Of a stretch of 64,000 nt of DNA, positions 11,901 through 47,510 are shown piece after piece (within the stretch, counting starts at the first letter, position 1; every line of letters starts with the position of its first letter). This DNA comes from Yamagishiella unicocca (lineage: Eukaryota > Chlorophyta > Chlorophyceae > Chlamydomonadales > Volvocaceae). The stretch lies in contig BDSL01000007.1 of assembly GCA_003116995.1 (NCBI GenBank), forward strand, positions 1,426,001-1,490,000, written 5' to 3'. The translations under genes were made by a program, and so were the position numbers. The notes beneath the pieces were generated by a model, which did no database searches, was not told the DNA's origin, and worked only from the letters and a program-made list of their open reading frames with translations.

Positions 11901-14900
11901 ATGCAGGCAAGTGGAACGAGCAGGCTCAGGAGCTGCTTGGCAAGCTGCTGCCCATCACGCACCTGCTACACGCCGCCGGCTCACAGGAGGCCCCGCCCTC
12001 CGCGCCGAAGCCCAAGAACCATGACGCCAAGGCTGGTCCGCAGAAAGCGTGAGTTATCTGCCTAGGAGGGATGTGTAACCAGGCAGGCCTTGTAGCACCG
12101 GGCCTTGTCCAGACCTTGTCACTAATCCCGCCTTCACCGCCCTTGTAGTGAATCAATGCAGCTCACGCTGGCGCCCACCAACATCGGCCGCCCCACCAAG
12201 ACACAGGAGGCTGCCCCCAACGCCCATTTGTCTGCGTACAAAGCCTTCTTCATCTATACGCACCACGGCAACCTGGTCTTGGTGTTCACCTGCTTTCTCT
12301 TCTTCCTGGCATCACAGTGCACACGTCAGGTGAGAACTTAGGAACCACCTGGTGATGTCCGATTCACCTGCCGATAACTAAGGATCTGAGCCTCGCTCAC
12401 CGCCGTAAATCTCCACTATCTGCTAAGCTCCAGCCAGTATTGATGCATCTCTCCCTTCTCATGCCCTGCAGATATCTGACTTCTGGGTCCGCTGGTGGGT
12501 CAACGACGAGTACAACAAGTACCCCGCCGGCGCCGGCGCTCAGAGCGATTCGGCCACCATGTTCTACTCCCTCATCTACCTCCTGCTCATCGGTATTTTC
12601 TACATACTCATGATTTTGCGTGGCAGCACGTTCCTGTGGTGGGTGCTCCGCTCCTCTGAGAACCTGCGCAAGAAGGCCCTGTACAACGTGCTCCACGCGC
12701 CCATGGGTTTCTTCCTCGTCATGCCCGTCGGTGACCTGCTGCTGAACTTCACGAAGGACCAGGTGGGCGGATGGCTGGGCGGGAACCACCCGGAGCCTGG
12801 CAGCTGGGAGTGGATAGGGAGTATAGCTGCGTAGCATCAATCACGGACACAAGCCTGCGGGTGGTTGCAGCCGCTGGCCTATGGAATAGCACGTGCACCA
12901 TTGTTGGCATTGCCGTAACCTTCGTTTTCTCCTTCATTCAACCCACAGGATATCATGGACGAGAACCTGCCTGACGCCGTACACTTTATGGGCATCTACG
13001 GGCTCATCCTCATCGCCACCACGATCACCGTATCCGTTTCCATCAACTTCTTTGGCGCCTTCACCGCCTTCCTCATCATCATGACCCTCGTCATGCTGGC
13101 CATCTACCTTCCCGCCGCCACCGCGCTCAAGAAGGCACGCGCCACCAGCGGCGGCATGCTCGTGGGCCTGGTCGCTGAGACGCTGGAGGGCCTGAGCGTG
13201 GTGCAGGCATTCAACAAGCAGGAGTACTTCATCAACGAGGCAGCTCGCCGCACGGACGTCACCAACAACGCCGTGTTCAACGCCGAGTCGCTCAACTTGT
13301 GGCTTGCCTTCTGGTGCGACTTCATTGGCGCCTGCCTGGTGGGCGTCGTGAGCTCCTTCGCCGTCGGAATGAAGGGTGAGACATCCGGGTGGCGAGCGTT
13401 GCTTGATGCCGATTTAAGAAACGGTCAAGTGTGCTCCGCCGTACATACAAGACATTTTGTCGTTACCTCGGTTGATTGACCCTACCTGTCATTTCCGCCT
13501 CCACAGATCAACTGGGCGCCGCCACCGTTGGACTGGCGTTTTCCAATATTATTCAGATGCTTGTGTTCTATACCTGGGTGGTGCGCTTCATCGCCGAGTC
13601 CATTTCGCTCTTCCACAGCGTTGAGGGGGTGAGTGGCGTGCAGGGCGGTGCGACTGGAGGGATGCAGGGATGAAGAGCCAGGCGTACTTATTACCTATGG
13701 CCTCACGCAGCCTGGGGAGGCGAGGCCGCCCGACAGGTACCCAAGCTGTTCACGACCTGACACTACCCCGCTGTTGCTGTCCTGCCGCTTAGATGGCCTT
13801 CCTTGCCGAGTACGTTCCGCACGACGGCGTCTTCTACGACTCCAAGGCGGAGAAGGGTGTGGCCAAGTCCCTCACCATGCCGGACGGCCAGATTGTGCCC
13901 GGTAAGCATCTAGTGGCGGCTGGCGGTTTGAGCGAGATGGACCTGCTGTGGACAAGCATCGTTGAACTGACGAAGCATGAAACCAATTAGAGCAAAAGCA
14001 CCGTGTAAAGCAACAAATGCCCATAGACCACCAACGTGTGAAATCACCTTGAGCTTCTGGACCGCTGGATCGCTCCTGCCTGTTCCGTACCATAGTTCCT
14101 GACCTAGCCCGCCACCGCTTCCTCCCTATCTGCAGCCGCCAGCAAGGTGCAGGTCGTTGTGGATGACGCTGCGCTGTCTCGCTGGCCCGCCTCGGGCAAC
14201 ATCCGCTTCGAGGACGTGTGGATGCAGTACCGCTTGGACGCGCCGTGGGCTCTGAAGGGTGTGACCTTCAAGATCAGCGACGGCGAGAAGGTTGGCGCCG
14301 TGGGCCGCACTGGCTCGGGCAAGTCCACTACGCTGCTGGCGCTGTACCGTATGTTCGAGCTGGGCAAGGGCCGCATCATCATTGACGGAGTCGACATTGC
14401 CACTCTGCCGCTCAAGCGCCTGAGGACTGGTGGGTAGTAGATCCGCGACCTCCCTAACACTGTTTGATTGAAGCACGCTTCCCTGCATGCTTAGCTCCAT
14501 CCTGAGGGCCTTTGCTGTGACACGTAATAATTTGTGCTCTGAACACACCCTTCGCTCTCCCCCATCTTCGCAGGCCTGTCCATCATTCCCCAGGAGCCAG
14601 TCATGTTCTCGGGAACCGTGCGCTCCAACCTGGACCCCTTCGGCGAGTTCAAGGTAAGGCAATGAATCCGTATTTCGGTTAGGCTTGAAATACGATGGTT
14701 TAAAGACGCAGGGTCCAGCGCCCTGTACGGAGAATCTGTTAATCGTTGATTAGGCGGTGTCGCCTTGAATCATCTGTGTTCTCACAAACCTGTCCATCTG
14801 CCCATTCGCTTCCTCAGGACGATGGTGTGCTTTGGGAGGTGCTGAAGAAGGTCGGCCTGGAGTCTCAGGCACAGCACTCTGGTGGCTTGGAGGGCCGTGT

Positions 14901-15291
14901 GGATGGCTCTGGCGGCAAGGCCTGGTCGCTGGGTCAAATGCAGCTGGTGTGCCTGGCGCGCGCCGCCCTGCGCGCCGTGCCCATCCTGTGCTTGGATGAG
15001 GCCACCGCCGCCATGGACCCGCACACGGAGCAGATCGTGCAGGAGACGATCAAGAAGGTGTTCGACGACCGCACCACCATCACCATTGCGCACCGCCTTG
15101 ACACCATCATTGAGTCGGACAAGGTGCTGGTCATGGAGGCGGGCGAGCTGAAGGAGTACGAATCCCCAGCCAAACTGCTGGGAGACCGCAGCTCCATGTT
15201 TTCAAGGCTGGTTGACAAGACAGGAGTCGCGGCCGCCGCCGCCCTACGGAAGATGGCGAACGAGCACTTCGCTCAGCAGGCGGCGCGGTGA
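8938..15291 (+). CDS. ABCC-type (MRP) ABC transporter, copy B, complete
   Basis: Exons are 8938-9287, 9519-9622, 9855-10532, 10772-10878, 11026-11366, 11518-11780, 11907-12048, 12149-12329, 12472-12762, 12949-13375, 13507-13628, 13793-13901, 14136-14429, 14574-14653 and 14818-15291. All introns are GT-AG, phases agree throughout, and the product is 1320 residues. The layout is a short cytosolic start, TMD1 (about 95-390), NBD1 (about 414-610), a Lys/Ala/Pro linker, TMD2 (about 700-1000) and NBD2 (about 1040-1290), with no extra N-terminal TMD0. NBD1 has Walker A 445-453, signature SGGQ 536-539, Walker B Asp559 followed by Asn560, and H-loop His592. NBD2 has Walker A 1095-1103, signature SLGQ 1200-1203, Walker B Asp1223-Glu1224 and His1255. 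Site 2 therefore keeps the catalytic Glu, while NBD1 has Asn where ABCC proteins usually have Asp. An HLA3/MRP1-like role in inorganic carbon uptake is possible from the host group and architecture but unproven. Confidence 0.93.
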
Positions 15292-15879
15292 GGGTGAACA
15301 TAGTCTCGATGTTGTACTAGCAGCCGGGACCTGAATCCACTCGGCGCCTAGGATGGGCTTTTTGTTTTCGCAGCGTGATTGGTTGCAACGGTTTATTGGT
15401 TCGCCTTCTGGAGTGAAAGCTGTAGGAGTTACGTGCACGATGTGAAGGCGTGTTTTTGTCATACCTCGTTCTGCATGCATGTGTGGTTGCTTCGTTAGGG
15501 AGAATGTTTCGTGCGGTTTTGCGGAGAGATTTGCGGTAATGCTACCCGCCACTGATTCGTACAGTCTTCAGCGCCATCTACTTATGGGGTTGCATGTCAA
15601 TAATCGACTCGTATGAGCAACTGTGGCGATTACGGATGAGAGAGTAGCTAGTGCGTGCTCGTGCGTCAGTGTTGCGTCAGTGTTTGGGTGGCAACACTCG
15701 GAGCACAGAGATGGCTTTCTTGTATCGCTGGCGATACTGTAGTTTATTTAATGATGGCTGGATTGGTGGTTCAAAACCAACAAGTGGGGAACATAGGCGC
15801 CTCCCGGTGCCGCGACGTACTGCATTACATCCATAGCAATATGCTGGCATGGAAAACATATGCAAGATACAAGATGTAA
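15292..15879 (+). terminator. 3' UTR/flank of copy B with TGTAA signal at 15875-15879
   Basis: About 585 nt of sequence homologous to the flanks of A and D, ending in GATGTAACGA. The pentamer TGTAA is the volvocine poly(A) signal. The same position is kept in copy C at 24908-24912. Confidence 0.55.
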
Positions 15880-16095
15880 CGACCAGTAAAGTTTTCGTGC
15901 CTCTCATGGCAACGGAATAAACAAGTCTTCCTTTTTTGGTCGTCGTCGCACGGTGGCTGTCCCTCTTGGATGGGAGGGCGTCCAGGAGATAAGGAGAGGT
16001 TGACAGAATATTCGAGCAGTTAGTAGTACTTATATATAGGGGGCTTCAGAAGAAAAGTCAAAACCATCGGGCACATCGCCGGGTTGTACACGTGG

Positions 16096-16683
16096 TTGTA
16101 CACGTGCAGGCATGCCCAGGCATGCCCAGGCACGCCTGGGGCCATTGGAATGGATAGGCCCAGGCACGCTCCCCAGAAAACGCCCATACCCGCTCGAGGG
16201 GCCTTCCAGGGCTCCCTGGTCGCTCCCGCAGGCGCAGAAGCAGGTGCGTGCAGCCCCCAGGCGTGGCTGTACACGTGCAGGCCAGGCATGCCCAGGCACG
16301 CCTGGGGCCATTGGAATGGATAGGCCCAGGCACGCTCCCCAGAAAGCATGCAGGCATGCCCATGCCTTTTCGGAAACCCTTCAAAGGCTCCTTTGTTACG
16401 TTGGTAGGAACAGAAGCAGTCGCATGCAGCCCCCGTGCGCGATGTCACATGCCTAGGCATGCCCAGGCACGCCTGTGGCCATTGAGATGGACAGGCCTTG
16501 GAGATGCCCGTTCTCAGGGGCGGGGCTATGACCTTTGCCTGTAGGCTTATTTTTTTTATAAGAGAAAATAGGCGTAAAGTGGGCTGTGGCATCCCGTGCA
16601 GAAAGCAAGTGGCCAGGCATGCCTAGGCATGCCTGGGGCCGGTCAATGGTAATTGCGCCAGGCATGCCTGGCGCCATTGGGAT
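16096..16683. repeat. Degenerate tandem repeat rich in GCATGC palindromes
   Basis: A 61-bp block starting GGCATGCCCAGGCACGCC and ending CACGCTCCCCAGAAA occurs at 16119-16179 and 16285-16345 (166 bp apart). It is preceded by TGTACACGTGCAGG and recurs in weaker form at about 16449-16490 and 16609-16683. Many units are self-complementary (AGGCATGCCT). Open frames on both strands follow the repeat and are not credible genes. Confidence 0.7.
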
Positions 16684-16847
16684 GGTACCCTTGCTTACTG
16701 CGGAAAAGACAGAAACCAGGCCGCACTGCACCAATGCAAACCATCAAGACTGAAGTGGTTACCGTATTGGGGGCGAAGGTTGCCCCGGGACCCAGCAATT
16801 CGGGCGTGTTGCAGATCTGCCTTTCTAGAGGCTGCTGGCTAGTACAA

Positions 16848-16967
16848 GTTACAGTGAGTTCCAGACCAAAAGGCAGAACCTCAACTGGTCGATGGTAGCA
16901 GTAGTAATTGTTACAGTGGGCCCCAGACCAGAAGGTAGAGCCATCGGGCGCATCGCCTGACACTGTT
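16848..16967 (-). mobile_element. Two LINE 3'-tail fragments in tandem
   Basis: On the + strand GTTACAGTGAGTTCCAGACC (16848) and GTTACAGTGGGCCCCAGACC (about 16910) are reverse complements of the LINE 3' terminus. The second runs on into GCCATCGGGCGCATCGCC. Each is a very short, extremely 5'-truncated insertion, and the second is preceded by GTAGCAGTAGTAAT, a trinucleotide-like tail. Confidence 0.6.
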
Positions 16968-17602
16968 AGAGACGCAGGGCGCCGGTGTTGTGGGGGTTTG
17001 ATAGCACGGGAGGGTATTGTTACAGCTGTGCCGCTTCTCCGCCGCCGCCGAGTGCTACTCGGCCGCACTGGCGCTCGCGCCATCGTCGCCCGGCACCCTG
17101 GCGGCGCTGGGCTACGTGGCGCAGCTGGCGGGCGACCCGCGGGTCGCTGTGGAGCACTACCACGCCGCGCTGGCGCTGCGTCCGGACGACCCGTTCACTG
17201 CGGACATGCTGCGGCTGGCGCTGCAGGTGAGCTCTCCAGGGGGCTCCAAGGGCCTCCAGGGAGGGAGGGAGGAAACCAATGAACCGGAGCCGGAGGATTG
17301 CGGGGGAATCCCGTGGAAAACCCGTTTGGGGCATACGTTTGGAGATGCATGCTGGAGGGTAGGCGGGTGGGAGGCGGCGGTGCGTGCGTGAGGCCTGGGC
17401 AGCGTGCGACCCTTTCGCTAAGGGTTGAGTGAGTTGAGGGGGCCTCCAAAACCCTTCGGGGAAAGGAGGGACTGTCCAGCGTGGAGGGCGCAAGTTTACT
17501 GCCACATGCGGCCCCCTCATCGTGTGTCCTATTCAGGAGTACGCGGAGGCAGCGGCGGCTGAGGAGGCAGCGACAGCGTCTGGGAGCAGAGGGTATCAAA
17601 GT

Positions 17603-17790
17603 GTCGTTCTAATCCCAATCCTCGAAAATAGTTGGTCCGGCAATCCCTCGTGAAATCTAATCCCCGACGGGTTTAATCCCTAAGCCCCAAATTCCAAAGC
17701 GAGTTCTAATCCCCAGCGCAGCAATCCCCCGCCGGGTTGAATCCCCTCGAGGTGGCGGTTTAAATCCCCAATCCCCACGGGTCCGCAGCA
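17603..17790. repeat. Left subterminal AATCCC motif cluster
   Basis: About nine copies of (T/C)(A)AATCCC-type words within 190 bp of the left end. A matching cluster lies at 20748-20906 next to the right end, in the same orientation on the + strand. Such clusters often bind transposases. That role is inferred. Confidence 0.6.
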
Positions 17791-18456
17791 GTCCCCAGCC
17801 CGTGTGAGTGTACAATATTCCCTAAGGAGCTGTGAGAAACGGCGGGTGTCATTTGCCTTTGGTGTCGCACCCTAGGATTCCGCTTCCCAGGGGCCTTGCG
17901 TGCCTTGCTTATAGAGGCGCAGTCCTTCCTCGATGGAGTTTACAGTTGGTGGTTGTGGCCGCGGATAATGGTGGCAATGTAACACCTCCTCGGACCGCAA
18001 CGGCGATCAAGGATGCACAGACGGCTGTTGACAGTCAATAGGTAGCACCCCTAATCACTAACCCCAACACTCCCGCTCAACGGTACTTTTAACACCATGC
18101 ATTACGTGGGGCACCGCACCATCCCACCTCCCGCCCATCTTGGTCCATCCCGCCTCCTTTCCCCAGCACGCATTAAACACCGGTGCAAAAAAAAAAAACC
18201 GCACAGGCGTTCGGTCCGATGCAGGCAGGTCGGGTTACATGACGGCAGTCTAGGCAACTAAAGGAAACGCATACAAGGAGGTTGTCTACGGATCGTGTAT
18301 ATATGTATAGGAGAATGGGGAGCCATGGACTATCAGCTGTACCACCATTCCATCTGTTCGTGTGTACGATTGACACGTTGGGAACTAAATGACGCCTGTC
18401 CTCCTCTTATTATACCACCATTCTCTGAAGTCATATAGCTAGAGTGCTGCGGTCGT

Positions 18457-18792
18457 TCAAACGATAGCGATGTCTTCCTCGGACAGGTCGTCTTCGGAAT
18501 CGGAAGGCGACCCCTCGACAGAGAGTTCTTCTTCTGGTTCGACGGAGGAGTCTACGTCGTCGGGCACTTGAGATGTCCGTGAGGAAGGAGATAATGGCGA
18601 GGAATATGTGAGCAGTCTGCCTTTGTCTGCTGGCAGTGTCCGAGTGCACCACTGGTGCACTAACCCATTTTCGTCGCCACGGCCTCGGCGCCTTCGCCTA
18701 ACGTGTACATTGCATCGTAGGTAACCACCGAAGACACAGAGCGCAAGGCCTTCGCGGAAAGGGTAAATCGGCGGGGAATTTTCGCCGACCAT
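18457..18792 (-). CDS. Unrecognised acidic-tailed ORF inside the transposon, copy 1
   Basis: The frame reads a basic stretch RRRRRGRG, then HQWC, and ends in a Ser/Glu/Asp-rich tail (EEELSVEGSPSDSEDDLSEED) before the stop. Upstream on the same strand, in another frame, is a Cys pair (PCALC, about 18740-18755). A Cys/His cluster plus acidic tail could be the degraded end of a transposase, but no family is recognisable and the frame could be chance. It is repeated at 27490-27825. Confidence 0.25.
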   Translation of the reverse strand: MVGENSPPIYPFREGLALCVFGGYLRCNVHVRRRRRGRGDENGLVHQWCTRTLPADKGRLLTYSSPLSPSSRTSQVPDDVDSSVEPEEELSVEGSPSDSEDDLSEEDIAIV

Positions 18793-18863
18793 GCCTCTGT
18801 CCCAGTTTGTCCGCGGTCTGCGACATCCGTAAGTTACAATACCACTTATTACGTATGTCGCAG

Positions 18864-20277
18864 GGTGGAGAGCCTAAGTCGCCGAACCTTGGGGCGGTCC
18901 TCACGAGTTTCCTGCGCGAATCCGGCCTCTTGATCGTGGCAGCTGGAGGAGAGCGGCGTCCGAACGCCCGATGATGTGATTGATACCATTGGAGGTAAGA
19001 GAGCGGGAGAGGGTATCGAATTGCGCCTAGTAATGCGATTTTTGTGCATATCGGTAGTGGTACCAGGCTCTTAGTGAACCTAATTTCGATTTATCCTGCC
19101 GTCTGTTTCGGCAGGTATGTCCAGAGCTATTGGGCCACATAGGCAGAGCTGGGCGCAGTGAGTGCTCACTTCTGGCGTACTCGGTGCTGGCCGTGTACAA
19201 CAACTGCGGAGGAACGCTCAAGTGAGAGGCGGGACCTCGACACCGGTGATGCAAGTGCACCCTGGCCAGATGTCAGCGGTTACCGGCACGCCACGCCACT
19301 AAACGGCTGGCGGGCGTTCAGCAAGCAGGGCAACCTTGCCAACCTGTTTGCTGGCGCACGCGAGCCCGCCAAGGCTGTCCTGCTCTGCCGCTTCCTGCCT
19401 CCGGACCAACAGCTGCAGCTGCGCAGGCTCGTAGGCTTGGCGCCCCCTTTCAGCGCGCTGGGCGCAGCAGCAGCAATGGGCGCTGCCACAGGGCATGGCC
19501 GACCCCGCAGCAGTGCGGACGGCGGACAACCAGGAACCAGCGCCGGTACCAGCCGTCATCCCCTTGCCAGCCCTGCGCCCACACCTGGCGCTGATGCCTG
19601 GACCCCTGTTCGTCACACGACGCCAACTTCAGGGTTGGAGCGGCGCGTTTTTTTGATGCCGCGGATGATGGCTTAGATGCAGCTAACGCATGGTCGGGGA
19701 ACCTGTTTGTGAACGTTTTGATGCCGCGGATGATGGCTTAGATGCAGCTAACGCATGGTCGGGGAACCTGTTTGTGAACCCGCCATTCGGTACCCATGAC
19801 GGGTGAAGTTTGCAGGGCCTTTTCCTGCAGCGATGTATCCTAGATTACAAGGCGGGGATTGTACAACAGATGGTAGTGCAGCTGAAGGCGAGCGCGGGGT
19901 ACACATGGTTCAGATCGGTGTTTGCCTGGCCGCATTGCTTTTTGGATGAGCGCCTGACGTGTGTTCAACCGCTGCGCGCTGCGGCCGAGGCTGGGGACGA
20001 GAGCTTGCGATGGGGAGTCCGCGTGCAAAACCCGCACGGCAGCGAGGTAATGTACCTTGGAAACAGTGGCGCCAAGTTTGCGCAGATGTTTAGGAGGGTA
20101 GGACAAATAGCCGGCCACAATGCATGGGCGCTCACGCCCGGTGCGTCGGACCAAGTTGGCACTTGATGCGCACTTGTGGGTGTCCATGTATTTTTTTTGC
20201 TTACTGCAGGGTCGGAATGGATAATGCTGGCGGCCAAATTGTTAGACTCCCTTTTAGGGACTGGGCCAGACTGCTAG
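18864..20277 (+). pseudogene. Decayed phage-type (Dam-like) DNA N6-adenine methyltransferase gene, copy 1
   Basis: The core reads DAADDGLDAANAWSGNLF followed by VNPPFG, with the NPPF motif (19777-19788) in the place of catalytic motif IV (D/N-PP-Y/F) of N6-adenine methyltransferases. After an in-frame TGA (19804-19806) the same frame continues with FLQRCILDYKAGIVQQMV, KASAGYTWFRSVFAWPHC and NPHGSEVMYLG, a good match to the C-terminal half of phage Dam-type enzymes. A GTGCGT donor (20141) and CAG acceptor (20207-20209) would add a last exon to TAG at 20275-20277. Upstream exon-like pieces (18864-18975, 19115-19221, and the frame of 19271-19650 with GWRAFSKQGNLANLF) may be its N-terminal part. 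A 65-bp tandem duplication, the TGA and frame changes show it is broken. The family call is from motif memory. Confidence 0.55.
19651..19779 (+). repeat. 65-bp tandem duplication inside the methyltransferase-like region
   Basis: 19651-19715 (TTTTGATGCCGCGGATGATG onwards) is repeated at 19716-19779. Because 65 is not a multiple of three, it shifts the frame between the two copies and disables the gene. The copy 2 equivalent is 28684-28812. Confidence 0.85.
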
Positions 20278-20747
20278 GACATGGCAGCTGAGTCCAGATG
20301 GGTATGTACTTCATTCCACGCGTTACTGCCTGCTTGTATTAGATTCGTTTTTGTAGGCTGCTGTGCAGCGGTACGGTACGGGATGGTCCATGATGCATCG
20401 TGAAGAGGAGGACGGGTTGTCCTGGTTTGCCTGGATGGTCTGGTCGAGGCAGCCACCTGAACTGTATGACCGGGCAGATTCAGATCTGTAACTTTGGTAT
20501 GGCATAGTGGTATGGCATCTGACTATGCAAACCCGTGTCACCTAGGCCAACCATGCATGTTGCACTTCTCTCGTTACTGGTGCAGCCGGTTGTGGGCAGC
20601 TCTATGACAATATGGACCAGTACGGCCTCGTCATGTGACCTGGTGTTGCGGCCCATCCAGCCAACAGCGCAGCTACCCCAACACTTCATGCCCTTCCCAA
20701 CCAGCGATGTGTATCCCGTACGACCCCAACCCCACCCCGACCGCGGG

Positions 20748-20906
20748 CCAATCCAATCCCTGCCGTCGGCCAATCCAATCCCTGCCGTTGGAAGGTTGAA
20801 TCCCTGACGTTGGAAGGTTGAATCCCTACCGTTGCACAGTCCAATCCCACCCTTTGGCTAATCTAATCCCCAACCCAGGACCAACCCTTTTGGCAATCCT
20901 AATCCC
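20748..20906. repeat. Right subterminal AATCCC motif cluster
   Basis: About eight AATCCC-type words, including two GGCCAATCCAATCCCTGCCG units and two GGTTGAATCCCT units, abutting the right inverted repeat. The partner of the cluster at the left end. Confidence 0.6.
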
Positions 20907-21002
20907 TTGATACCCTCTGCTGGGAGCCCAGCCGCAGCCGCGTCGGGCGCTGCGGCGACTGCCGCCGCCGTCGCCGCGGGCGGCCTCGCAGCGGGAGGCT
21001 AG

Positions 21003-22404
21003 TGGCGCAGCTCGCCCTCAAGGACCAACGCGCCTGCCACTCCGCGTTGGCAGCCCCCTTAGATCGACCCCGACCTCATCTCATGAATCGCGACCCGTAT
21101 TCAGCGCGCAGGCTAGAAGAGCCCTGCGTGGGCTTGGGAGGTGGTTTGCCGACCACGCGGATGCTCTGAAGGCCGCTTTGAGGGTTGCGTACGGCTGTAG
21201 TGTATGTTCATCGGCGATGATGGCCAGTGGGAGTTTTAGGGTTCATGGGAGAGGTGCGGTGCATGGGTGAGTGAGCCCTCCATGCCCGGCCCCCCATGTC
21301 TCTTCTGCGACGGTCGACTGCACCAAAGACGTGCACCTTCCGCCCACAAGTTTGCCTTCTCGCTATCATGGCCTCGGCTACTCGGGTCGCAGACTTCTCC
21401 ATGGCCTCGGCTACTCGGATTGCGGACTTCTCCATGGCCTCGGCTACTCGGATTGCAGACTTCTCCGAAGCCTTGGCAAGGTGTCCGGCACTGTACGCAA
21501 CTGCTAGGGCCCAAAAGGCGGACACTGCCATCCCAAACTGGCCCCCAAGGGCGCCAGTCCACTCCATTGGCTCCGGCGTTATCGACAAGAATGTGTGTGA
21601 TGTTTTTCCGACGTGTAAGGCCAAAGCGAACAAGCCCTAAACCCGTACAGCATAGCGGCAAACGTTCGAACTCGTTGCGGCGTACAGGTACGCTTGGAAG
21701 GCATGTCTACCGCCGTGCCGTTGGGTTGGCATGTCGGGACACAGTCCTGGCAACGCAACGGCGATCCTAGTATGCAGGCAACAGACTTGCCGTGTCTACA
21801 CTCTGTCCATCTCGCACTGTGTCGCGACCGGCAGCCAGGGGTGGGTTTCGAGGAAGACCCGTGGATGGGGGTGGGGGAAGGGCAAGCGGGGCTCCCCGAA
21901 CGTTTTAGTTGTGGACAATGGAAAGGCGGAAGCTGTCGAAGCACCTGCAGGCACCGGGTAAGGCTGGGGTACAGGCAAATGGGTACGTCGCATTACCGTT
22001 ACCAGGGCTGGTGTGGAGTCAAGTCTTACAGCCTTGCGAAGCGTGTGTTCTGGCAACTGAACCGAGTAGTGTGTGTGGAGGACTTGATTACGGTTGTTGG
22101 GGCACCAGTTCACCTCACGTGGTTTACGGACGATTTGCGGAAGGGTGTGCGGGGGCATTATTGCCACAAATAAATGGGGCGCGTAGCACAGCCGATGGGA
22201 AGGGGAGGGGCCCACGGCGGCCGCCTACCTGCGACAACTGGTATCCTAGCTGAGGCATGGGGGTGGGGGGTGCAAGGAAAAGCCTTGTACGGGAGTGACA
22301 GAAAAGGACCGGTTACTCGACATGGGAAGTGTAGCTGGTGCATAGCCTTCGGACATAGTGTACGGGGCGGGGGTGGGGGGTGCGTGTGGGCATGGGGGTG
22401 GGTC
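21003..22404. other. Region after the CDC16-like stop, weak ORFs only
   Basis: Probably begins as the 3' flank of the CDC16-like fragment. It holds a 33-bp triplicate repeat (21365-21470) that gives a minus-strand frame (21633-21208) with three KSAIRVAEAME-type 11-residue repeats after a hydrophobic stretch (GMAVSAFWALAVAYS). A + frame at 21694-22173 has no recognisable domain. The segment ends in G-rich runs (about 22260-22404). I cannot assign a product to any frame. Confidence 0.35.
21208..21633 (-). CDS. Hypothetical 141-residue protein with three 11-residue repeats
   Basis: One open frame with ATG. Residues of about 30-55 are hydrophobic, followed by three near-identical repeats KSAIRVAEAME (Ala/Glu-rich, helix-forming) and an Arg-rich tail. 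The + strand gives an alternative frame with MASATRIADFS repeats. No family is recognised and no neighbouring splice signals decide between strands. Duplicated at 30241-30666. Confidence 0.25.
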   Translation of the reverse strand: MFALALHVGKTSHTFLSITPEPMEWTGALGGQFGMAVSAFWALAVAYSAGHLAKASEKSAIRVAEAMEKSAIRVAEAMEKSATRVAEAMIARRQTCGRKVHVFGAVDRRRRDMGGRAWRAHSPMHRTSPMNPKTPTGHHRR

Positions 22405-22539
22405 AAGGGTGAGACATCCGGGTGGCGAGCGTTGCTTGATGCCGATTTAAGAAACGGTCAAGTGTGCTCCGCCGTACATACAAGACATTTTGTCGTTACC
22501 TCGGTTGATTGACCCTACCTGTCATTTCCGCCTCCACAG

Positions 22540-24324
22540 ATCAACTGGGCGCCGCCACCGTTGGACTGGCGTTTTCCAATATTATTCAGATGCTTGTGTT
22601 CTATACCTGGGTGGTGCGCTTCATCGCCGAGTCCATTTCGCTCTTCCACAGCGTTGAGGGGGTGAGTGGCGTGCAGGGCGGTGCGACTGGAGGGATGCAG
22701 GGATGAAGAGCCAGGCGTACTTATTACCTATGGCCTCACGCAGCCTGGGGAGGCGAGGCCGCCCGACAGGTACCCAAGCTGTTCACGACCTGACACTACC
22801 CCGCTGTTGCTGTCCTGCCGCTTAGATGGCCTTCCTTGCCGAGTACGTTCCGCACGACGGCGTCTTCTACGACTCCAAGGCGGAGAAGGGTGTGGCCAAG
22901 TCCCTCACCATGCCGGACGGCCAGATTGTGCCCGGTAAGCATCTAGTGGCGGCTGGCGGTTTGAGCGAGATGGACCTGCTGTGGACAAGCATCGTTGAAC
23001 TGACGAAGCATGAAACCAATTAGAGCAAAAGCACCGTGTAAAGCAACAAATGCCCATAGACCACCAACGTGTGAAATCACCTTGAGCTTCTGGACCGCTG
23101 GATCGCTCCTGCCTGTTCCGTACCATAGTTCCTGACCTAGCCCGCCACCGCTTCCTCCCTATCTGCAGCCGCCAGCAAGGTGCAGGTCGTTGTGGATGAC
23201 GCTGCGCTGTCTCGCTGGCCCGCCTCGGGCAACATCCGCTTCGAGGACGTGTGGATGCAGTACCGCTTGGACGCGCCGTGGGCTCTGAAGGGTGTGACCT
23301 TCAAGATCAGCGACGGCGAGAAGGTTGGCGCCGTGGGCCGCACTGGCTCGGGCAAGTCCACTACGCTGCTGGCGCTGTACCGTATGTTCGAGCTGGGCAA
23401 GGGCCGCATCATCATTGACGGAGTCGACATTGCCACTCTGCCGCTCAAGCGCCTGAGGACTGGTGGGTAGTAGATCCGCGACCTCCCTAACACTGTTTGA
23501 TTGAAGCACGCTTCCCTGCATGCTTAGCTCCATCCTGAGGGCCTTTGCTGTGACACGTAATAATTTGTGCTCTGAACACACCCTTCGCTCTCCCCCATCT
23601 TCGCAGGCCTGTCCATCATTCCCCAGGAGCCAGTCATGTTCTCGGGAACCGTGCGCTCCAACCTGGACCCCTTCGGCGAGTTCAAGGTAAGGCAATGAAT
23701 CCGTATTTCGGTTAGGCTTGAAATACGATGGTTTAAAGACGCAGGGTCCAGCGCCCTGTACGGAGAATCTGTTAATCGTTGATTAGGCGGTGTCGCCTTG
23801 AATCATCTGTGTTCTCACAAACCTGTCCATCTGCCCATTCGCTTCCTCAGGACGATGGTGTGCTTTGGGAGGTGCTGAAGAAGGTCGGCCTGGAGTCTCA
23901 GGCACAGCACTCTGGTGGCTTGGAGGGCCGTGTGGATGGCTCTGGCGGCAAGGCCTGGTCGCTGGGTCAAATGCAGCTGGTGTGCCTGGCGCGCGCCGCC
24001 CTGCGCGCCGTGCCCATCCTGTGCTTGGATGAGGCCACCGCCGCCATGGACCCGCACACGGAGCAGATCGTGCAGGAGACGATCAAGAAGGTGTTCGACG
24101 ACCGCACCACCATCACCATTGCGCACCGCCTTGACACCATCATTGAGTCGGACAAGGTGCTGGTCATGGAGGCGGGCGAGCTGAAGGAGTACGAATCCCC
24201 AGCCAAACTGCTGGGAGACCGCAGCTCCATGTTTTCAAGGCTGGTTGACAAGACAGGAGTCGCGGCCGCCGCCGCCCTACGGAAGATGGCGAACGAGCAC
24301 TTCGCTCAGCAGGCGGCGCGGTGA
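22540..24324 (+). pseudogene. ABCC transporter copy C: exons 11-15 only
   Basis: Exons 22540-22661, 22826-22934, 23169-23462, 23607-23686 and 23851-24324 repeat the last five exons of copy B with all motifs of NBD2 ([26 protein letters not shown]). The duplication breakpoint at 22404/22405 keeps only four bases of exon 10, so TMD1, NBD1 and most of TMD2 are missing and there is no promoter or plausible start. It could be transcribed only by read-through or from a new promoter in the G-rich upstream sequence. It is best treated as a 5'-truncated pseudogene. Confidence 0.9.
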
Positions 24325-24912
24325 GGGTGAACATAGTCTCGATGTTGTACTAGCAGCCGGGACCTGAATCCACTCGGCGCCTAGGATGGGCTTTTTGTTT
24401 TCGCAGCGTGATTGGTTGCAACGGTTTATTGGTTCGCCTTCTGGAGTGAAAGCTGTAGGAGTTACGTGCACGATGTGAAGGCGTGTTTTTGTCATACCTC
24501 GTTCTGCATGCATGTGTGGTTGCTTCGTTAGGGAGAATGTTTCGTGCGGTTTTGCGGAGAGATTTGCGGTAATGCTACCCGCCACTGATTCGTACAGTCT
24601 TCAGCGCCATCTACTTATGGGGTTGCATGTCAATAATCGACTCGTATGAGCAACTGTGGCGATTACGGATGAGAGAGTAGCTAGTGCGTGCTCGTGCGTC
24701 AGTGTTGCGTCAGTGTTTGGGTGGCAACACTCGGAGCACAGAGATGGCTTTCTTGTATCGCTGGCGATACTGTAGTTTATTTAATGATGGCTGGATTGGT
24801 GGTTCAAAACCAACAAGTGGGGAACATAGGCGCCTCCCGGTGCCGCGACGTACTGCATTACATCCATAGCAATATGCTGGCATGGAAAACATATGCAAGA
24901 TACAAGATGTAA
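24325..24912 (+). terminator. 3' flank of copy C with TGTAA signal at 24908-24912
   Basis: Same sequence as the flank of copy B, moved with the 9,033-bp duplication. Confidence 0.5.
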
Positions 24913-25128
24913 CGACCAGTAAAGTTTTCGTGCCTCTCATGGCAACGGAATAAACAAGTCTTCCTTTTTTGGTCGTCGTCGCACGGTGGCTGTCCCTCTT
25001 GGATGGGAGGGCGTCCAGGAGATAAGGAGAGGTTGACAGAATATTCGAGCAGTTAGTAGTACTTATATATAGGGGGCTTCAGAAGAAAAGTCAAAACCAT
25101 CGGGCACATCGCCGGGTTGTACACGTGG

Positions 25129-25716
25129 TTGTACACGTGCAGGCATGCCCAGGCATGCCCAGGCACGCCTGGGGCCATTGGAATGGATAGGCCCAGGCAC
25201 GCTCCCCAGAAAACGCCCATACCCGCTCGAGGGGCCTTCCAGGGCTCCCTGGTCGCTCCCGCAGGCGCAGAAGCAGGTGCGTGCAGCCCCCAGGCGTGGC
25301 TGTACACGTGCAGGCCAGGCATGCCCAGGCACGCCTGGGGCCATTGGAATGGATAGGCCCAGGCACGCTCCCCAGAAAGCATGCAGGCATGCCCATGCCT
25401 TTTCGGAAACCCTTCAAAGGCTCCTTTGTTACGTTGGTAGGAACAGAAGCAGTCGCATGCAGCCCCCGTGCGCGATGTCACATGCCTAGGCATGCCCAGG
25501 CACGCCTGTGGCCATTGAGATGGACAGGCCTTGGAGATGCCCGTTCTCAGGGGCGGGGCTATGACCTTTGCCTGTAGGCTTATTTTTTTTATAAGAGAAA
25601 ATAGGCGTAAAGTGGGCTGTGGCATCCCGTGCAGAAAGCAAGTGGCCAGGCATGCCTAGGCATGCCTGGGGCCGGTCAATGGTAATTGCGCCAGGCATGC
25701 CTGGCGCCATTGGGAT
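25129..25716. repeat. GCATGC-palindrome repeat block, copy 2
   Basis: Duplicate of 16096-16683 within unit 2, with the two 61-bp blocks at 25152-25212 and 25318-25378. Confidence 0.7.
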
Positions 25717-25880
25717 GGTACCCTTGCTTACTGCGGAAAAGACAGAAACCAGGCCGCACTGCACCAATGCAAACCATCAAGACTGAAGTGGTTACCGTAT
25801 TGGGGGCGAAGGTTGCCCCGGGACCCAGCAATTCGGGCGTGTTGCAGATCTGCCTTTCTAGAGGCTGCTGGCTAGTACAA

Positions 25881-26000
25881 GTTACAGTGAGTTCCAGACC
25901 AAAAGGCAGAACCTCAACTGGTCGATGGTAGCAGTAGTAATTGTTACAGTGGGCCCCAGACCAGAAGGTAGAGCCATCGGGCGCATCGCCTGACACTGTT
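25881..26000 (-). mobile_element. LINE 3'-tail fragments, copy 2
   Basis: Duplicate of 16848-16967, carried by the segmental duplication rather than by new retrotransposition. Confidence 0.6.
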
Positions 26001-27489
26001 AGAGACGCAGGGCGCCGGTGTTGTGGGGGTTTGATAGCACGGGAGGGTATTGTTACAGCTGTGCCGCTTCTCCGCCGCCGCCGAGTGCTACTCGGCCGCA
26101 CTGGCGCTCGCGCCATCGTCGCCCGGCACCCTGGCGGCGCTGGGCTACGTGGCGCAGCTGGCGGGCGACCCGCGGGTCGCTGTGGAGCACTACCACGCCG
26201 CGCTGGCGCTGCGTCCGGACGACCCGTTCACTGCGGACATGCTGCGGCTGGCGCTGCAGGTGAGCTCTCCAGGGGGCTCCAAGGGCCTCCAGGGAGGGAG
26301 GGAGGAAACCAATGAACCGGAGCCGGAGGATTGCGGGGGAATCCCGTGGAAAACCCGTTTGGGGCATACGTTTGGAGATGCATGCTGGAGGGTAGGCGGG
26401 TGGGAGGCGGCGGTGCGTGCGTGAGGCCTGGGCAGCGTGCGACCCTTTCGCTAAGGGTTGAGTGAGTTGAGGGGGCCTCCAAAACCCTTCGGGGAAAGGA
26501 GGGACTGTCCAGCGTGGAGGGCGCAAGTTTACTGCCACATGCGGCCCCCTCATCGTGTGTCCTATTCAGGAGTACGCGGAGGCAGCGGCGGCTGAGGAGG
26601 CAGCGACAGCCTCTGGGAGCAGAGGGTATCAAAGTGTCGTTCTAATCCCAATCCTCGAAAATAGTTGGTCCGGCAATCCCTCGTGAAATCTAATCCCCGA
26701 CGGGTTTAATCCCTAAGCCCCAAATTCCAAAGCGAGTTCTAATCCCCAGCGCAGCAATCCCCCGCCGGGTTGAATCCCCTCGAGGTGGCGGTTTAAATCC
26801 CCAATCCCCACGGGTCCGCAGCAGTCCCCAGCCCGTGTGAGTGTACAATATTCCCTAAGGAGCTGTGAGAAACGGCGGGTGTCATTTGCCTTTGGTGTCG
26901 CACCCTAGGATTCCGCTTCCCAGGGGCCTTGCGTGCCTTGCTTATAGAGGCGCAGTCCTTCCTCGATGGAGTTTACAGTTGGTGGTTGTGGCCGCGGATA
27001 ATGGTGGCAATGTAACACCTCCTCGGACCGCAACGGCGATCAAGGATGCACAGACGGCTGTTGACAGTCAATAGGTAGCACCCCTAATCACTAACCCCAA
27101 CACTCCCGCTCAACGGTACTTTTAACACCATGCATTACGTGGGGCACCGCACCATCCCACCTCCCGCCCATCTTGGTCCATCCCGCCTCCTTTCCCCAGC
27201 ACGCATTAAACACCGGTGCAAAAAAAAAAAACCGCACAGGCGTTCGGTCCGATGCAGGCAGGTCGGGTTACATGACGGCAGTCTAGGCAACTAAAGGAAA
27301 CGCATACAAGGAGGTTGTCTACGGATCGTGTATATATGTATAGGAGAATGGGGAGCCATGGACTATCAGCTGTACCACCATTCCATCTGTTCGTGTGTAC
27401 GATTGACACGTTGGGAACTAAATGACGCCTGTCCTCCTCTTATTATACCACCATTCTCTGAAGTCATATAGCTAGAGTGCTGCGGTCGT

Positions 27490-27825
27490 TCAAACGATAG
27501 CGATGTCTTCCTCGGACAGGTCGTCTTCGGAATCGGAAGGCGACCCCTCGACAGAGAGTTCTTCTTCTGGTTCGACGGAGGAGTCTACGTCGTCGGGCAC
27601 TTGAGATGTCCGTGAGGAAGGAGATAATGGCGAGGAATATGTGAGCAGTCTGCCTTTGTCTGCTGGCAGTGTCCGAGTGCACCACTGGTGCACTAACCCA
27701 TTTTCGTCGCCACGGCCTCGGCGCCTTCGCCTAACGTGTACATTGCATCGTAGGTAACCACCGAAGACACAGAGCGCAAGGCCTTCGCGGAAAGGGTAAA
27801 TCGGCGGGGAATTTTCGCCGACCAT
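27490..27825 (-). CDS. Unrecognised acidic-tailed ORF, copy 2
   Basis: Duplicate of the frame at 18457-18792 with the same deduced protein. See that entry for the limits of the call. Confidence 0.25.
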   Translation of the reverse strand: MVGENSPPIYPFREGLALCVFGGYLRCNVHVRRRRRGRGDENGLVHQWCTRTLPADKGRLLTYSSPLSPSSRTSQVPDDVDSSVEPEEELSVEGSPSDSEDDLSEEDIAIV

Positions 27826-27896
27826 GCCTCTGTCCCAGTTTGTCCGCGGTCTGCGACATCCGTAAGTTACAATACCACTTATTACGTATGTCGCAG

Positions 27897-29310
27897 GGTG
27901 GAGAGCCTAAGTCGCCGAACCTTGGGGCGGTCCTCACGAGTTTCCTGCGCGAATCCGGCCTCTTGATCGTGGCAGCTGGAGGAGAGCGGCGTCCGAACGC
28001 CCGATGATGTGATTGATACCATTGGAGGTAAGAGAGCGGGAGAGGGTATCGAATTGCGCCTAGTAATGCGATTTTTGTGCATATCGGTAGTGGTACCAGG
28101 CTCTTAGTGAACCTAATTTCGATTTATCCTGCCGTCTGTTTCGGCAGGTATGTCCAGAGCTATTGGGCCACATAGGCAGAGCTGGGCGCAGTGAGTGCTC
28201 ACTTCTGGCGTACTCGGTGCTGGCCGTGTACAACAACTGCGGAGGAACGCTCAAGTGAGAGGCGGGACCTCGACACCGGTGATGCAAGTGCACCCTGGCC
28301 AGATGTCAGCGGTTACCGGCACGCCACGCCACTAAACGGCTGGCGGGCGTTCAGCAAGCAGGGCAACCTTGCCAACCTGTTTGCTGGCGCACGCGAGCCC
28401 GCCAAGGCTGTCCTGCTCTGCCGCTTCCTGCCTCCGGACCAACAGCTGCAGCTGCGCAGGCTCGTAGGCTTGGCGCCCCCTTTCAGCGCGCTGGGCGCAG
28501 CAGCAGCAATGGGCGCTGCCACAGGGCATGGCCGACCCCGCAGCAGTGCGGACGGCGGACAACCAGGAACCAGCGCCGGTACCAGCCGTCATCCCCTTGC
28601 CAGCCCTGCGCCCACACCTGGCGCTGATGCCTGGACCCCTGTTCGTCACACGACGCCAACTTCAGGGTTGGAGCGGCGCGTTTTTTTGATGCCGCGGATG
28701 ATGGCTTAGATGCAGCTAACGCATGGTCGGGGAACCTGTTTGTGAACGTTTTGATGCCGCGGATGATGGCTTAGATGCAGCTAACGCATGGTCGGGGAAC
28801 CTGTTTGTGAACCCGCCATTCGGTACCCATGACGGGTGAAGTTTGCAGGGCCTTTTCCTGCAGCGATGTATCCTAGATTACAAGGCGGGGATTGTACAAC
28901 AGATGGTAGTGCAGCTGAAGGCGAGCGCGGGGTACACATGGTTCAGATCGGTGTTTGCCTGGCCGCATTGCTTTTTGGATGAGCGCCTGACGTGTGTTCA
29001 ACCGCTGCGCGCTGCGGCCGAGGCTGGGGACGAGAGCTTGCGATGGGGAGTCCGCGTGCAAAACCCGCACGGCAGCGAGGTAATGTACCTTGGAAACAGT
29101 GGCGCCAAGTTTGCGCAGATGTTTAGGAGGGTAGGACAAATAGCCGGCCACAATGCATGGGCGCTCACGCCCGGTGCGTCGGACCAAGTTGGCACTTGAT
29201 GTGCACTTGTGGGTGTCCATGTATTTTTTTTGCTTACTGCAGGGTCGGAATGGATAATGCTGGCGGCCAAATTGTTAGACTCCCTTTTAGGGACTGGGCC
29301 AGACTGCTAG
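27897..29310 (+). pseudogene. Decayed Dam-like N6-adenine methyltransferase gene, copy 2
   Basis: Same as copy 1, including the 65-bp tandem duplication (28684-28812), the in-frame TGA (28837-28839) and the predicted last exon ending at 29308-29310. The only change noted is in the predicted intron (29202). Confidence 0.55.
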
Positions 29311-30240
29311 GACATGGCAGCTGAGTCCAGATGGGTATGTACTTCATTCCACGCGTTACTGCCTGCTTGTATTAGATTCGTTTTTGTAGGCTGCTGTGCA
29401 GCGGTACGGTACGGGATGGTCCATGATGCATCGTGAAGAGGAGGACGGGTTGTCCTGGTTTGCCTGGATGGTCTGGTCGAGGCAGCCACCTGAACTGTAT
29501 GACCGGGCAGATTCAGATCTGTAACTTTGGTATGGCATAGTGGTATGGCATCTGACTATGCAAACCCGTGTCACCTAGGCCAACCATGCATGTTGCACTT
29601 CTCTCGTTACTGGTGCAGCCGGTTGTGGGCAGCTCTATGACAATATGGACCAGTACGGCCTCGTCATGTGACCTGGTGTTGCGGCCCATCCAGCCAACAG
29701 CGCAGCTACCCCAACACTTCATGCCCTTCCCAACCAGCGATGTGTATCCCGTACGACCCCAACCCCACCCCGACCGCGGGCCAATCCAATCCCTGCCGTC
29801 GGCCAATCCAATCCCTGCCGTTGGAAGGTTGAATCCCTGACGTTGGAAGGTTGAATCCCTACCGTTGCACAGTCCAATCCCACCCTTTGGCTAATCTAAT
29901 CCCCAACCCAGGACCAACCCTTTTGGCAATCCTAATCCCTTGATACCCTCTGCTGGGAGCCCAGCCGCAGCCGCGTCGGGCGCTGCGGCGACTGCCGCCG
30001 CCGTCGCCGCGGGCGGCCTCGCAGCGGGAGGCTAGTGGCGCAGCTCGCCCTCAAGGACCAACGCGCCTGCCACTCCGCGTTGGCAGCCCCCTTAGATCGA
30101 CCCCGACCTCATCTCATGAATCGCGACCCGTATTCAGCGCGCAGGCTAGAAGAGCCCTGCGTGGGCTTGGGAGGTGGTTTGCCGACCACGCGGATGCTCT
30201 GAAGGCCGCTTTGAGGGTTGCGTACGGCTGTAGTGTATGT

Positions 30241-30666
30241 TCATCGGCGATGATGGCCAGTGGGAGTTTTAGGGTTCATGGGAGAGGTGCGGTGCATGGG
30301 TGAGTGAGCCCTCCATGCCCGGCCCCCCATGTCTCTTCTGCGACGGTCGACTGCACCAAAGACGTGCACCTTCCGCCCACAAGTTTGCCTTCTCGCTATC
30401 ATGGCCTCGGCTACTCGGGTCGCAGACTTCTCCATGGCCTCGGCTACTCGGATTGCGGACTTCTCCATGGCCTCGGCTACTCGGATTGCAGACTTCTCCG
30501 AAGCCTTGGCAAGGTGTCCGGCACTGTACGCAACTGCTAGGGCCCAAAAGGCGGACACTGCCATCCCAAACTGGCCCCCAAGGGCGCCAGTCCACTCCAT
30601 TGGCTCCGGCGTTATCGACAAGAATGTGTGTGATGTTTTTCCGACGTGTAAGGCCAAAGCGAACAA
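30241..30666 (-). CDS. Hypothetical 11-residue-repeat protein, copy 2
   Basis: Identical deduced frame to 21208-21633, carried by the segmental duplication. Coding status is uncertain. Confidence 0.25.
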   Translation of the reverse strand: MFALALHVGKTSHTFLSITPEPMEWTGALGGQFGMAVSAFWALAVAYSAGHLAKASEKSAIRVAEAMEKSAIRVAEAMEKSATRVAEAMIARRQTCGRKVHVFGAVDRRRRDMGGRAWRAHSPMHRTSPMNPKTPTGHHRR

Positions 30667-31680
30667 GCCCTAAACCCGTACAGCATAGCGGCAAACGTTC
30701 GAACTCGTTGCGGCGTACAGGTACGCTTGGAAGGCATGTCTACCGCCGTGCCGTTGGGTTGGCATGTCGGGACACAGTCCTGGCAACGCAACGGCGATCC
30801 TAGTATGCAGGCAACAGACTTGCCGTGTCTACACTCTGTCCATCTCGCACTGTGTCGCGACCGGCAGCCAGGGGTGGGTTTCGAGGAAGACCCGTGGATG
30901 GGGGTGGGGGAAGGGCAAGCGGGGCTCCCCGAACGTTTTAGTTGTGGACAATGGAAAGGCGGAAGCTGTCGAAGCACCTGCAGGCACCGGGTAAGGCTGG
31001 GGTACAGGCAAATGGGTACGTCGCATTACCGTTACCAGGGCTGGTGTGGAGTCAAGTCTTACAGCCTTGCGAAGCGTGTGTTCTGGCAACTGAACCGAGT
31101 AGTGTGTGTGGAGGACTTGATTACGGTTGTTGGGGCACCAGTTCACCTCACGTGGTTTACGGACGATTTGCGGAAGGGTGTGCGGGGGCATTATTGCCAC
31201 AAATAAATGGGGCGCGTAGCACAGCCGATGGGAAGGGGAGGGGCCCACGGCGGCCGCCTACCTGCGACAACTGGTATCCTAGCTGAGGCATGGGGGTGGG
31301 GGGTGCAAGGAAAAGCCTTGTACGGGAGTGACAGAAAAGGACCGGTTACTCGACATGGGAAGTGTAGCTGGTGCATAGCCTTCGGACATAGTGTACGGGG
31401 CGGGGGTGGGGGGTGCGTGTGGGCATGGGGGTGGGTCATGCGGGCATGGGTGATGTGACACCCGCCCGTGTGTCCCAGGGACAGGCGGACGGCGGCGGGA
31501 GGGGGGCGTTATCGAGTATTCGGCCGGGCCTGGAGGCAAGGGATGCAGGCGGTGCCGGCCGAGGGTCCGGACGCGGTGAAGGTGCAGGTCGCGGCTTGTC
31601 GTACTCGGCTCCCCGGATTGCAAAGTCGATGCAGTACGCCATGCATGTGCGCCGAGCAGCGCTCCAGGGGCGGTGCGTTT

Positions 31681-32041: not shown

Positions 32042-32693
32042 TATTTGTGTGAGCCGCCGATGGCAGGAGTCACGGCGTCACGAATCGTTGCAGGTACCCA
32101 AAAAGCTTGTTAGGCCTTAGCTCCGTTCGCGTGTACATGGGAGAAGGGGACCGCCTTCCACGATGCATTCTTGCAACTGCAGACACACCGTTTACATAAA
32201 TCCACTTGCGCGCACAGATGGCAGTTCGATCCGTCGCTGCGCCAAGTCGACGCCCAACCCTGTCTAGCTACCGACACGAGGCGGAGGGGCCGGGTTTGCA
32301 TAGGTTGCGATTAATTGACGACGCCCAAACGGTACGGGACACACACTCGCCGACCTACCCAACTATTCGCCGTACGTTGCTTGAATGCACCGCGGAACCT
32401 CCAGCAGCCGTCCCACCCAATCGATGCGCCCTGACGTCTGCCTATGTATGACCTCGAGACCTGGGCCGTGCAGCACTAGCAGCAGATACGTGCGGCATGT
32501 GGCATATCAGGGCTATACCCTGCCGCATACGCTGTCGTACCCGGACCTCATTCCTGAGACGCCGCTGATCAAGCGAGATCTTTGTTCAGTGGGAGGCCGA
32601 TGGTAGTATTCGCCGGCATGTGCTTGTGTTCCGCCAATTATTCGGTGCACCCCCAGCCCCATCGGGCTGGGTACCTGGGCCCCGGTGGGTGGC

Positions 32694-46850: not shown

Positions 46851-47510
46851 GCAGCACGGCCGGGGATCTGTGTTAGTCGCATCCCTAGCAGAACATTAGT
46901 GTGTATAACTCACGGGAAGATGCTGGGTGGAAGTTTCTGGGCCCACTTGGTTCCGAAGCGTTGATTCATAGCGTTGCATGCCGCACGCTAAATCAAGTGA
47001 AGCTCCTGGCAGGACGACCCCGTAAACCGCTCCCTTTGCACGTATCCGCATCTAGGTGGGAATGCGAGCAGGCACTCAGCTGTCGAGCGTAGTGGAGTAA
47101 AGACAATCTGTATCTCCAAAGGGCGATGGGCAAACTAGCAAAGCCTCTTGCTTGCTTGTGATGTTTCAACAAATCATGACATCTAGGGTACACGGGCATA
47201 TGTGGGCTTTCGCAGCGCACGTTGTAAACACATTTAGTACCTGAGTACTGGGCATGTCACATTAGCCCTCCTTGCGGGCCCGCAATCACGCTATCACTGC
47301 ACGCGGTGACGACTAGGGAGCCCGGCTTGAAATACCACTGCATCATTGTAATTTCCCCGCGCGATGCGAGCACATTGGCGAGCTTAAAAGCCGTCACTCT
47401 TTATGCCGGATGGCAGTCGGTTGCCTGTACGGCCTTGAACGACGCCGCTTTTGTCGAGAATAATACCCACACTGGGCGCCAAAGAAATTCACAGAGGGTG
47501 GCGGACACGG
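46851..47510. other. Stretch right of the satellite, nothing recognised
   Basis: About 650 bp with only short open frames, no domain, no repeat shared with the rest of the window and no RNA gene that I can see. Confidence 0.4.

Follow-up and report, generated by a model that had tools for sequence, protein, structure and literature searches.

The window analysed here, a 64,000-nucleotide stretch of Yamagishiella unicocca DNA, holds two copies of a 3.3-kb element with terminal inverted repeats (TIRs) and 7-bp target site duplications (TSDs), and the sole recognised gene of this family is a broken, phage-related Dam-type methylase gene. We consider it likely that the family as so described multiplied through a cut-and-paste transposase supplied in trans. 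The genome searched was a 133.4-Mb assembly, of whose contig C7 the window is a part.

Borders and copies of the element

The first copy spans 17587..20919 on the + strand (3,333 bp). Its ends were placed from the similarity of copies and from the TIRs and TSDs, start and end being the limits of similarity among most copies when BLAST was run against 19 genome loci. The 13-bp left TIR, CAGAGGGTATCAA, occupies 17587..17599 (+) and its reverse complement 20907..20919 (-), and the target site duplication CTGGGAG (unstranded) lies directly outside them, at 17580..17586 on the left and 20920..20926 on the right. Subterminal 22-bp repeats with AATCC (repeat family D1, also unstranded) are found at 20733..20870. 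The initial annotation, which had placed the transposon at 18864..20277, was therefore too narrow. A TPR-coding host exon at 17005-17230 (TPR_2, 1.9e-10) is located upstream of the insertion and a host exon for an ABC transporter downstream of it, at 23141-23470. At 32693-46864 there is a long array of tandem repeats with a period of about 142 bp. The second copy (26620..29952, +) resides within a tandem duplication in which 13372-22405 is repeated as 22405-31438 (9,034 bp, 99.98% identical), either a recent event or an assembly artefact, so that the copies at 17587 and 26620 represent one and the same insertion event.

A 1,414-base query gave 50 genome matches, among which 22 loci cover at least 805 of its bases at 94-100% identity, nine of them along its entire length. 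The TIR was present at both termini in all 17 copies measured (two in the window and 15 elsewhere), and exact 7-bp TSDs flank 15 of these 17, the remaining two (L008 and L011) having no matching TSD. Inverted repeats with a target duplication, as in DNA transposons, had already been recognized in the initial annotation, and this view is borne out by the recurrence of both. Compared with the window copy, the 17 two-ended copies show 97.25-99.97% identity, which we read as a sign that the family moved recently. Genome scans recovered 31 left ends with zero or one mismatch (one site in the reversed control, at up to three mismatches) and 26 exact right ends (none in the control). One 252-bp miniature, flanked by the TSD ACTCGTA, consists of the ends only; the interior is thus dispensable in cis.

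The methylase remnant and its relatives

Within the window copy, the Dam core persists as two pieces on the + strand which resemble the protein encoded by an open 368-aa frame on contig C115. The first, with the motif LDPCSS at 19598, extends over 19598..19714 and corresponds to residues 202-240 of that protein (tblastn, 69% identity, E 1.7e-14). The second, 19717..20139, carries the NPPFG motif, an in-frame TGA and the PHGS-type C-terminal part, and corresponds to residues 220-365 (56% identity, E 7.3e-52). With such values the resemblance is not due to chance; over 19598-20139 as a whole, identity to the C115 gene is 56-69%, with E down to 7e-52. Both motifs are thus in the window copy, in two different frames, LDPCSS being absent from the earlier list. 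The frame is broken by a 64-nt tandem repeat at 19651..19779 (+; units 19651-19714 and 19716-19779). FDAADDGLDAANAWSGNLFVNPPFGTHDG starts at 19717 and is followed by the TGA and then by an open frame of 119 aa (19807..20166, +), which includes QQMVVQLKASAGYTWF and NPHGSEVMYLGNSG; all the peptides quoted in the initial annotation were found in the window.

The frame 19807-20166 has no Pfam match. The search against PF05869 proposed in the initial annotation gave no match with it, and reading the window copy through with X still gave no Pfam match, PF05869 included, but did give phrog_111 at 3.2e-4. Treated likewise, the divergent copy L067 reached PF05869 at 9e-4 with 19.4 bits, below the cut-off of 28.1, and phrog_111 at 1.3e-12. 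The C115 frame passes PF05869 (31.9 bits against 28.1, E 1.3e-7) and matches phrog_111, annotated as DNA methyltransferase, at E 7e-20; on the NCBI phage N6A model it scored only 20.3 of 97 bits. Since the window frame itself fails PF05869, its membership in the Dam family rests on its relatives and on phrog_111. The decayed phage-type Dam gene of the initial annotation stands on the open relative and on the phage matches given below, and not on the window frame's own score. Judged from its sequence, the window copy is a pseudogene of a Dam-type methyltransferase related to phage enzymes. Frame 19143-19676 of the window showed no significant match to the zinc-finger-like part of P0001 or of C115.

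Decay is general in the family. The Dam core is broken in all 18 copies followed: 13 have an in-frame stop inside the core, and in five (L013-L017) the core is split across shifted frames with its middle missing. L018 and L068, which hold only a partial Dam core, were excluded from this count. The 64-nt repeat is missing in L009-L011, L013-L017, L067 and L068, and therefore probably arose within the family. About 2.5 kb of extra sequence is found in the 6-kb copy on C201 (L067) and in a cut-off copy on C909; part of it (L067 1412-2671, G000:C201) is proline-rich and of low complexity. This extra sequence was considered as a transposase and rejected by eye, being of low complexity; the one frame scanned gave no Pfam match.

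Among the copies examined, none was found to hold an intact methylase between its inverted repeats. A genome search with frame 19807-20166 gave 51 matches, including the open C115 frame (53% identity). The initial annotation had considered that an intact source copy may exist elsewhere in the genome; an open relative was found there, but no intact copy within the family's own ends. The C115 gene is surrounded by long inverted arms, which were rejected as TIRs because they represent an inverted duplication of the zinc-finger-like exon upstream of the gene and showed no TSD. No enclosing TIR pair could be demonstrated for C115 or for the other open relative, on C63.

A second TIR family encloses the same gene. 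Its copies (L033 and L035-L047) have 51-53% protein identity to the window gene and are tied to the end GGAGGGATGGCAACC, a 15-mer with 76 genome occurrences and none in the reversed control. Seven end pairs (C18, C48, C54, C282, C287, C389 and C986) enclose eight methylase copies, that on C287 flanked by the TSD GTGCGGC. Three of its miniatures were fetched, with exact 7-bp TSDs on C4 and C24 and an offset one on C12. The flanks of the C18 and C54 copies are exchanged, as after recombination, and several copies have common flanks and are therefore not independent insertions. The second family retains the upstream zinc-finger-like part, matching the C115 upstream exon at E 4e-14 and a 634-aa Volvox reticuliferus protein at E 4e-7. 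It shows no match before residue 230, so that LDPCSS has been lost, and its remaining Dam part is without a stop in 13 of 14 copies. Ends at 51099 and 68610 on C103 were considered as a 17.5-kb element; their flanks mismatch, and they were taken as separate. The related end CAGAGGGTAGGAAAG forms pairs on two contigs, C70 with three (494-497 bp) and C93 with one (2,006 bp), among which there is no autonomous partner. A right end on C135 has no left end, and no transposase was recognized by eye within 6 kb of it.

Scoring of 7,996 candidates gave 15 proteins homologous to C115, the named ones from V. reticuliferus, V. carteri and Tetrabaena. A profile search added prokaryote-type proteins with both an N-terminal NERQ/CERQ-type stretch and the Dam part. 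In phage records, tblastn with the C115 relative found a match in 322 of 50,697, in the Dam part only, the best at 33.9% identity and E 2e-18. A 26-row tree unites 13 rows in one clade (96/98), made up of the window family (represented by L067), the second TIR family, C115, C63 and the volvocine proteins; two phage rows adjoin this clade. The DIRS-like and Gypsy-like Dam rows fall outside it, with a long-branch warning, and the tree does not settle the branching order inside the clade, which holds both TIR families. The simplest reading is that the methylase would have come from a phage or bacterial source, a direction that we infer. A profile search of solved structures gave no match up to E 1. 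An AlphaFold model of the relative P0007 (mean pLDDT 80.4), compared with the PDB, had a single match at E < 0.001, to 6irx, a cap adenosine methyltransferase (TM 0.29), whereas E. coli Dam came ninth at E 0.039; this model comparison weakly backs a methyltransferase identity.

Mobilization and origin of the cargo

A genome search for three transposase families (KDZ, hAT and one P-type) found neither a transposase of the element nor an autonomous copy. The only KDZ match in the genome is single-copy (L072, G000:C71:486850-490035) and not near a listed end; two hAT matches, on C11 and C152, are likewise not near one; the P-type search gave no match, nor did its control. In the four element frames scanned, no reverse transcriptase (RT), RNase H or tyrosine recombinase family was detected. 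A transposase from elsewhere would act on the element ends alone and make the 7-bp TSDs; by TSD length it might be hAT7-like or Kyakuja-like, the element itself being assigned to neither.

The parent element may have carried a longer gene, with zinc-finger-like, NERQ-type and Dam parts, acquired from a phage or bacterium. An intact enzyme would have methylated adenines and, speculatively, such methylation could have marked the element DNA as permissive or altered transposase binding. In present copies the methylase would be a dead passenger.

We lean towards the methylase gene as ancestral cargo of the transposon. The alternative, that a host-gene fragment was captured once or twice by non-autonomous elements (Pack-type) and never belonged to an autonomous transposon, has an appreciable chance of being right, if short of an even one: in the searches done the ends were not found to enclose a transposase, any TIR pair that could be demonstrated excludes the open relatives on C115 and C63, and the tree does not support the two TIR families as sisters. 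Against capture, members of one gene family are found in two TIR families with related ends, and in the second of these the zinc-finger-like part precedes Dam, as it does in the 634-aa V. reticuliferus protein and in C115. A bolder version of ancestral cargo, which we regard as rather unlikely, would have an algal class II lineage take over the whole two-part phage gene (NERQ-type and Dam) and methylate its own adenines to control transposition or to mimic active chromatin; both TIR families would then be decayed, trans-mobilized offspring, and the open volvocine genes surviving or domesticated enzymes.

Two other explanations carry much less weight. That the 119-aa C-terminal piece is still functional, for instance as a short protein or a small-RNA source acting on the intact gene, seems highly improbable. 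Twelve listed copies, 89-100% identical, keep its frame open, and between the window copy and C201 pS exceeds pN (0.108 vs 0.047), but this comparison rests on 22 changes, and control frames gave 0.071 vs 0.044, the same lean, and 0.036 vs 0.068, the opposite one. Moreover, the piece has neither LDPCSS nor NPPFG, and the middle is lost in L013-L017. Hardly credible at all is an origin in a DIRS or Gypsy-type Dam retroelement with incidental inverted repeats. The genome does contain Dam in such contexts: the DIRS-like L060 combines RT, RNase H and Dam in one frame, and in the Gypsy-like frame L055 (G000:C4) Dam lies upstream of aspartic protease and RT. However, the window family is not represented among the 17 genome places matching PF05869, the clade to which the window gene belongs excludes the DIRS and Gypsy-type Dam lineages, albeit with long branches, and 15 of 17 copies share the combination of TIRs and 7-bp TSDs. 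The initial annotation had likewise set its element apart from DIRS, and the family's methylase copies do sit between the same inverted repeats. A Gypsy-like frame with Dam upstream of aspartic protease and RT was also recognized by eye on C53 (L051); with the L055/L051 type, this genome has an additional mobile carrier of Dam.

Relation to known carriers of DNA-modifying genes

Cargo genes of this kind have precedents. Published sources (PMC12730594, PMC5890265, PMC3266345, PMC8226300, PMC3627910) describe Dam in DIRS, cytosine methylases carried by retroelements, DNA transposons with TET and SET genes, and giant-virus Mariner elements that encode methylases. Eukaryotic transposons with cytosine methylases, TET enzymes or histone methylases as cargo are known already, as is Dam in DIRS. 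In the open-licence PMC literature, consulted partly in extracts, we came across no account of a TIR transposon of a eukaryote with a Dam-type gene. If TIR transposons in the genome of a cellular organism carry such a gene, 6mA would join the modifications open to exploitation by class II elements, and this in green algae, where robust 6mA is reported for Chlamydomonas (PMC12695648). Our results also suggest a route for the spread of a phage-type gene among volvocine algae, and the open relative is a candidate that can be assayed.

The closest parallels are fungal DNA transposons (hAT7, Kyakuja and others) that encode a TET/JBP dioxygenase, as described in PMC12730594. Their cargo, like that of the window family, is a DNA-modifying enzyme; the TSDs of hAT7 and Kyakuja have the same length, 7 bp, and Kyakuja has the same CA..TG ends. 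According to the same source, the fungal cargo is a methylcytosine oxidase whereas that of the window family is of adenine methylase type, the fungal elements are classed by their transposases whereas none was found here, and Kyakuja lacks the TIRs that the window family possesses (PMC12730594). DIRS retrotransposons are likewise mobile with a Dam-type adenine methylase domain but, according to PMC3266345 and PMC5890265, are retroelements with RT, RNase H and recombinase, and the clade of the window gene does not include the DIRS-type Dam of this genome. Giant-virus Mariner elements, as described in PMC3627910, are also class II elements with a DNA methyltransferase gene, but they possess a transposase, reside in a viral genome and encode other domains (Methyltransf_26, cytosine-C5). 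Finally, phage Dam-type methyltransferases (phrog_111; Vibrio phage K300, 1.185.O) have a core conserved with the algal gene, and unnamed prokaryote-type relatives share in addition the N-terminal NERQ-type part. Full-length algal relatives differ from the phage enzymes by their extra upstream zinc-finger-like part, and the window copy by being a pseudogene.
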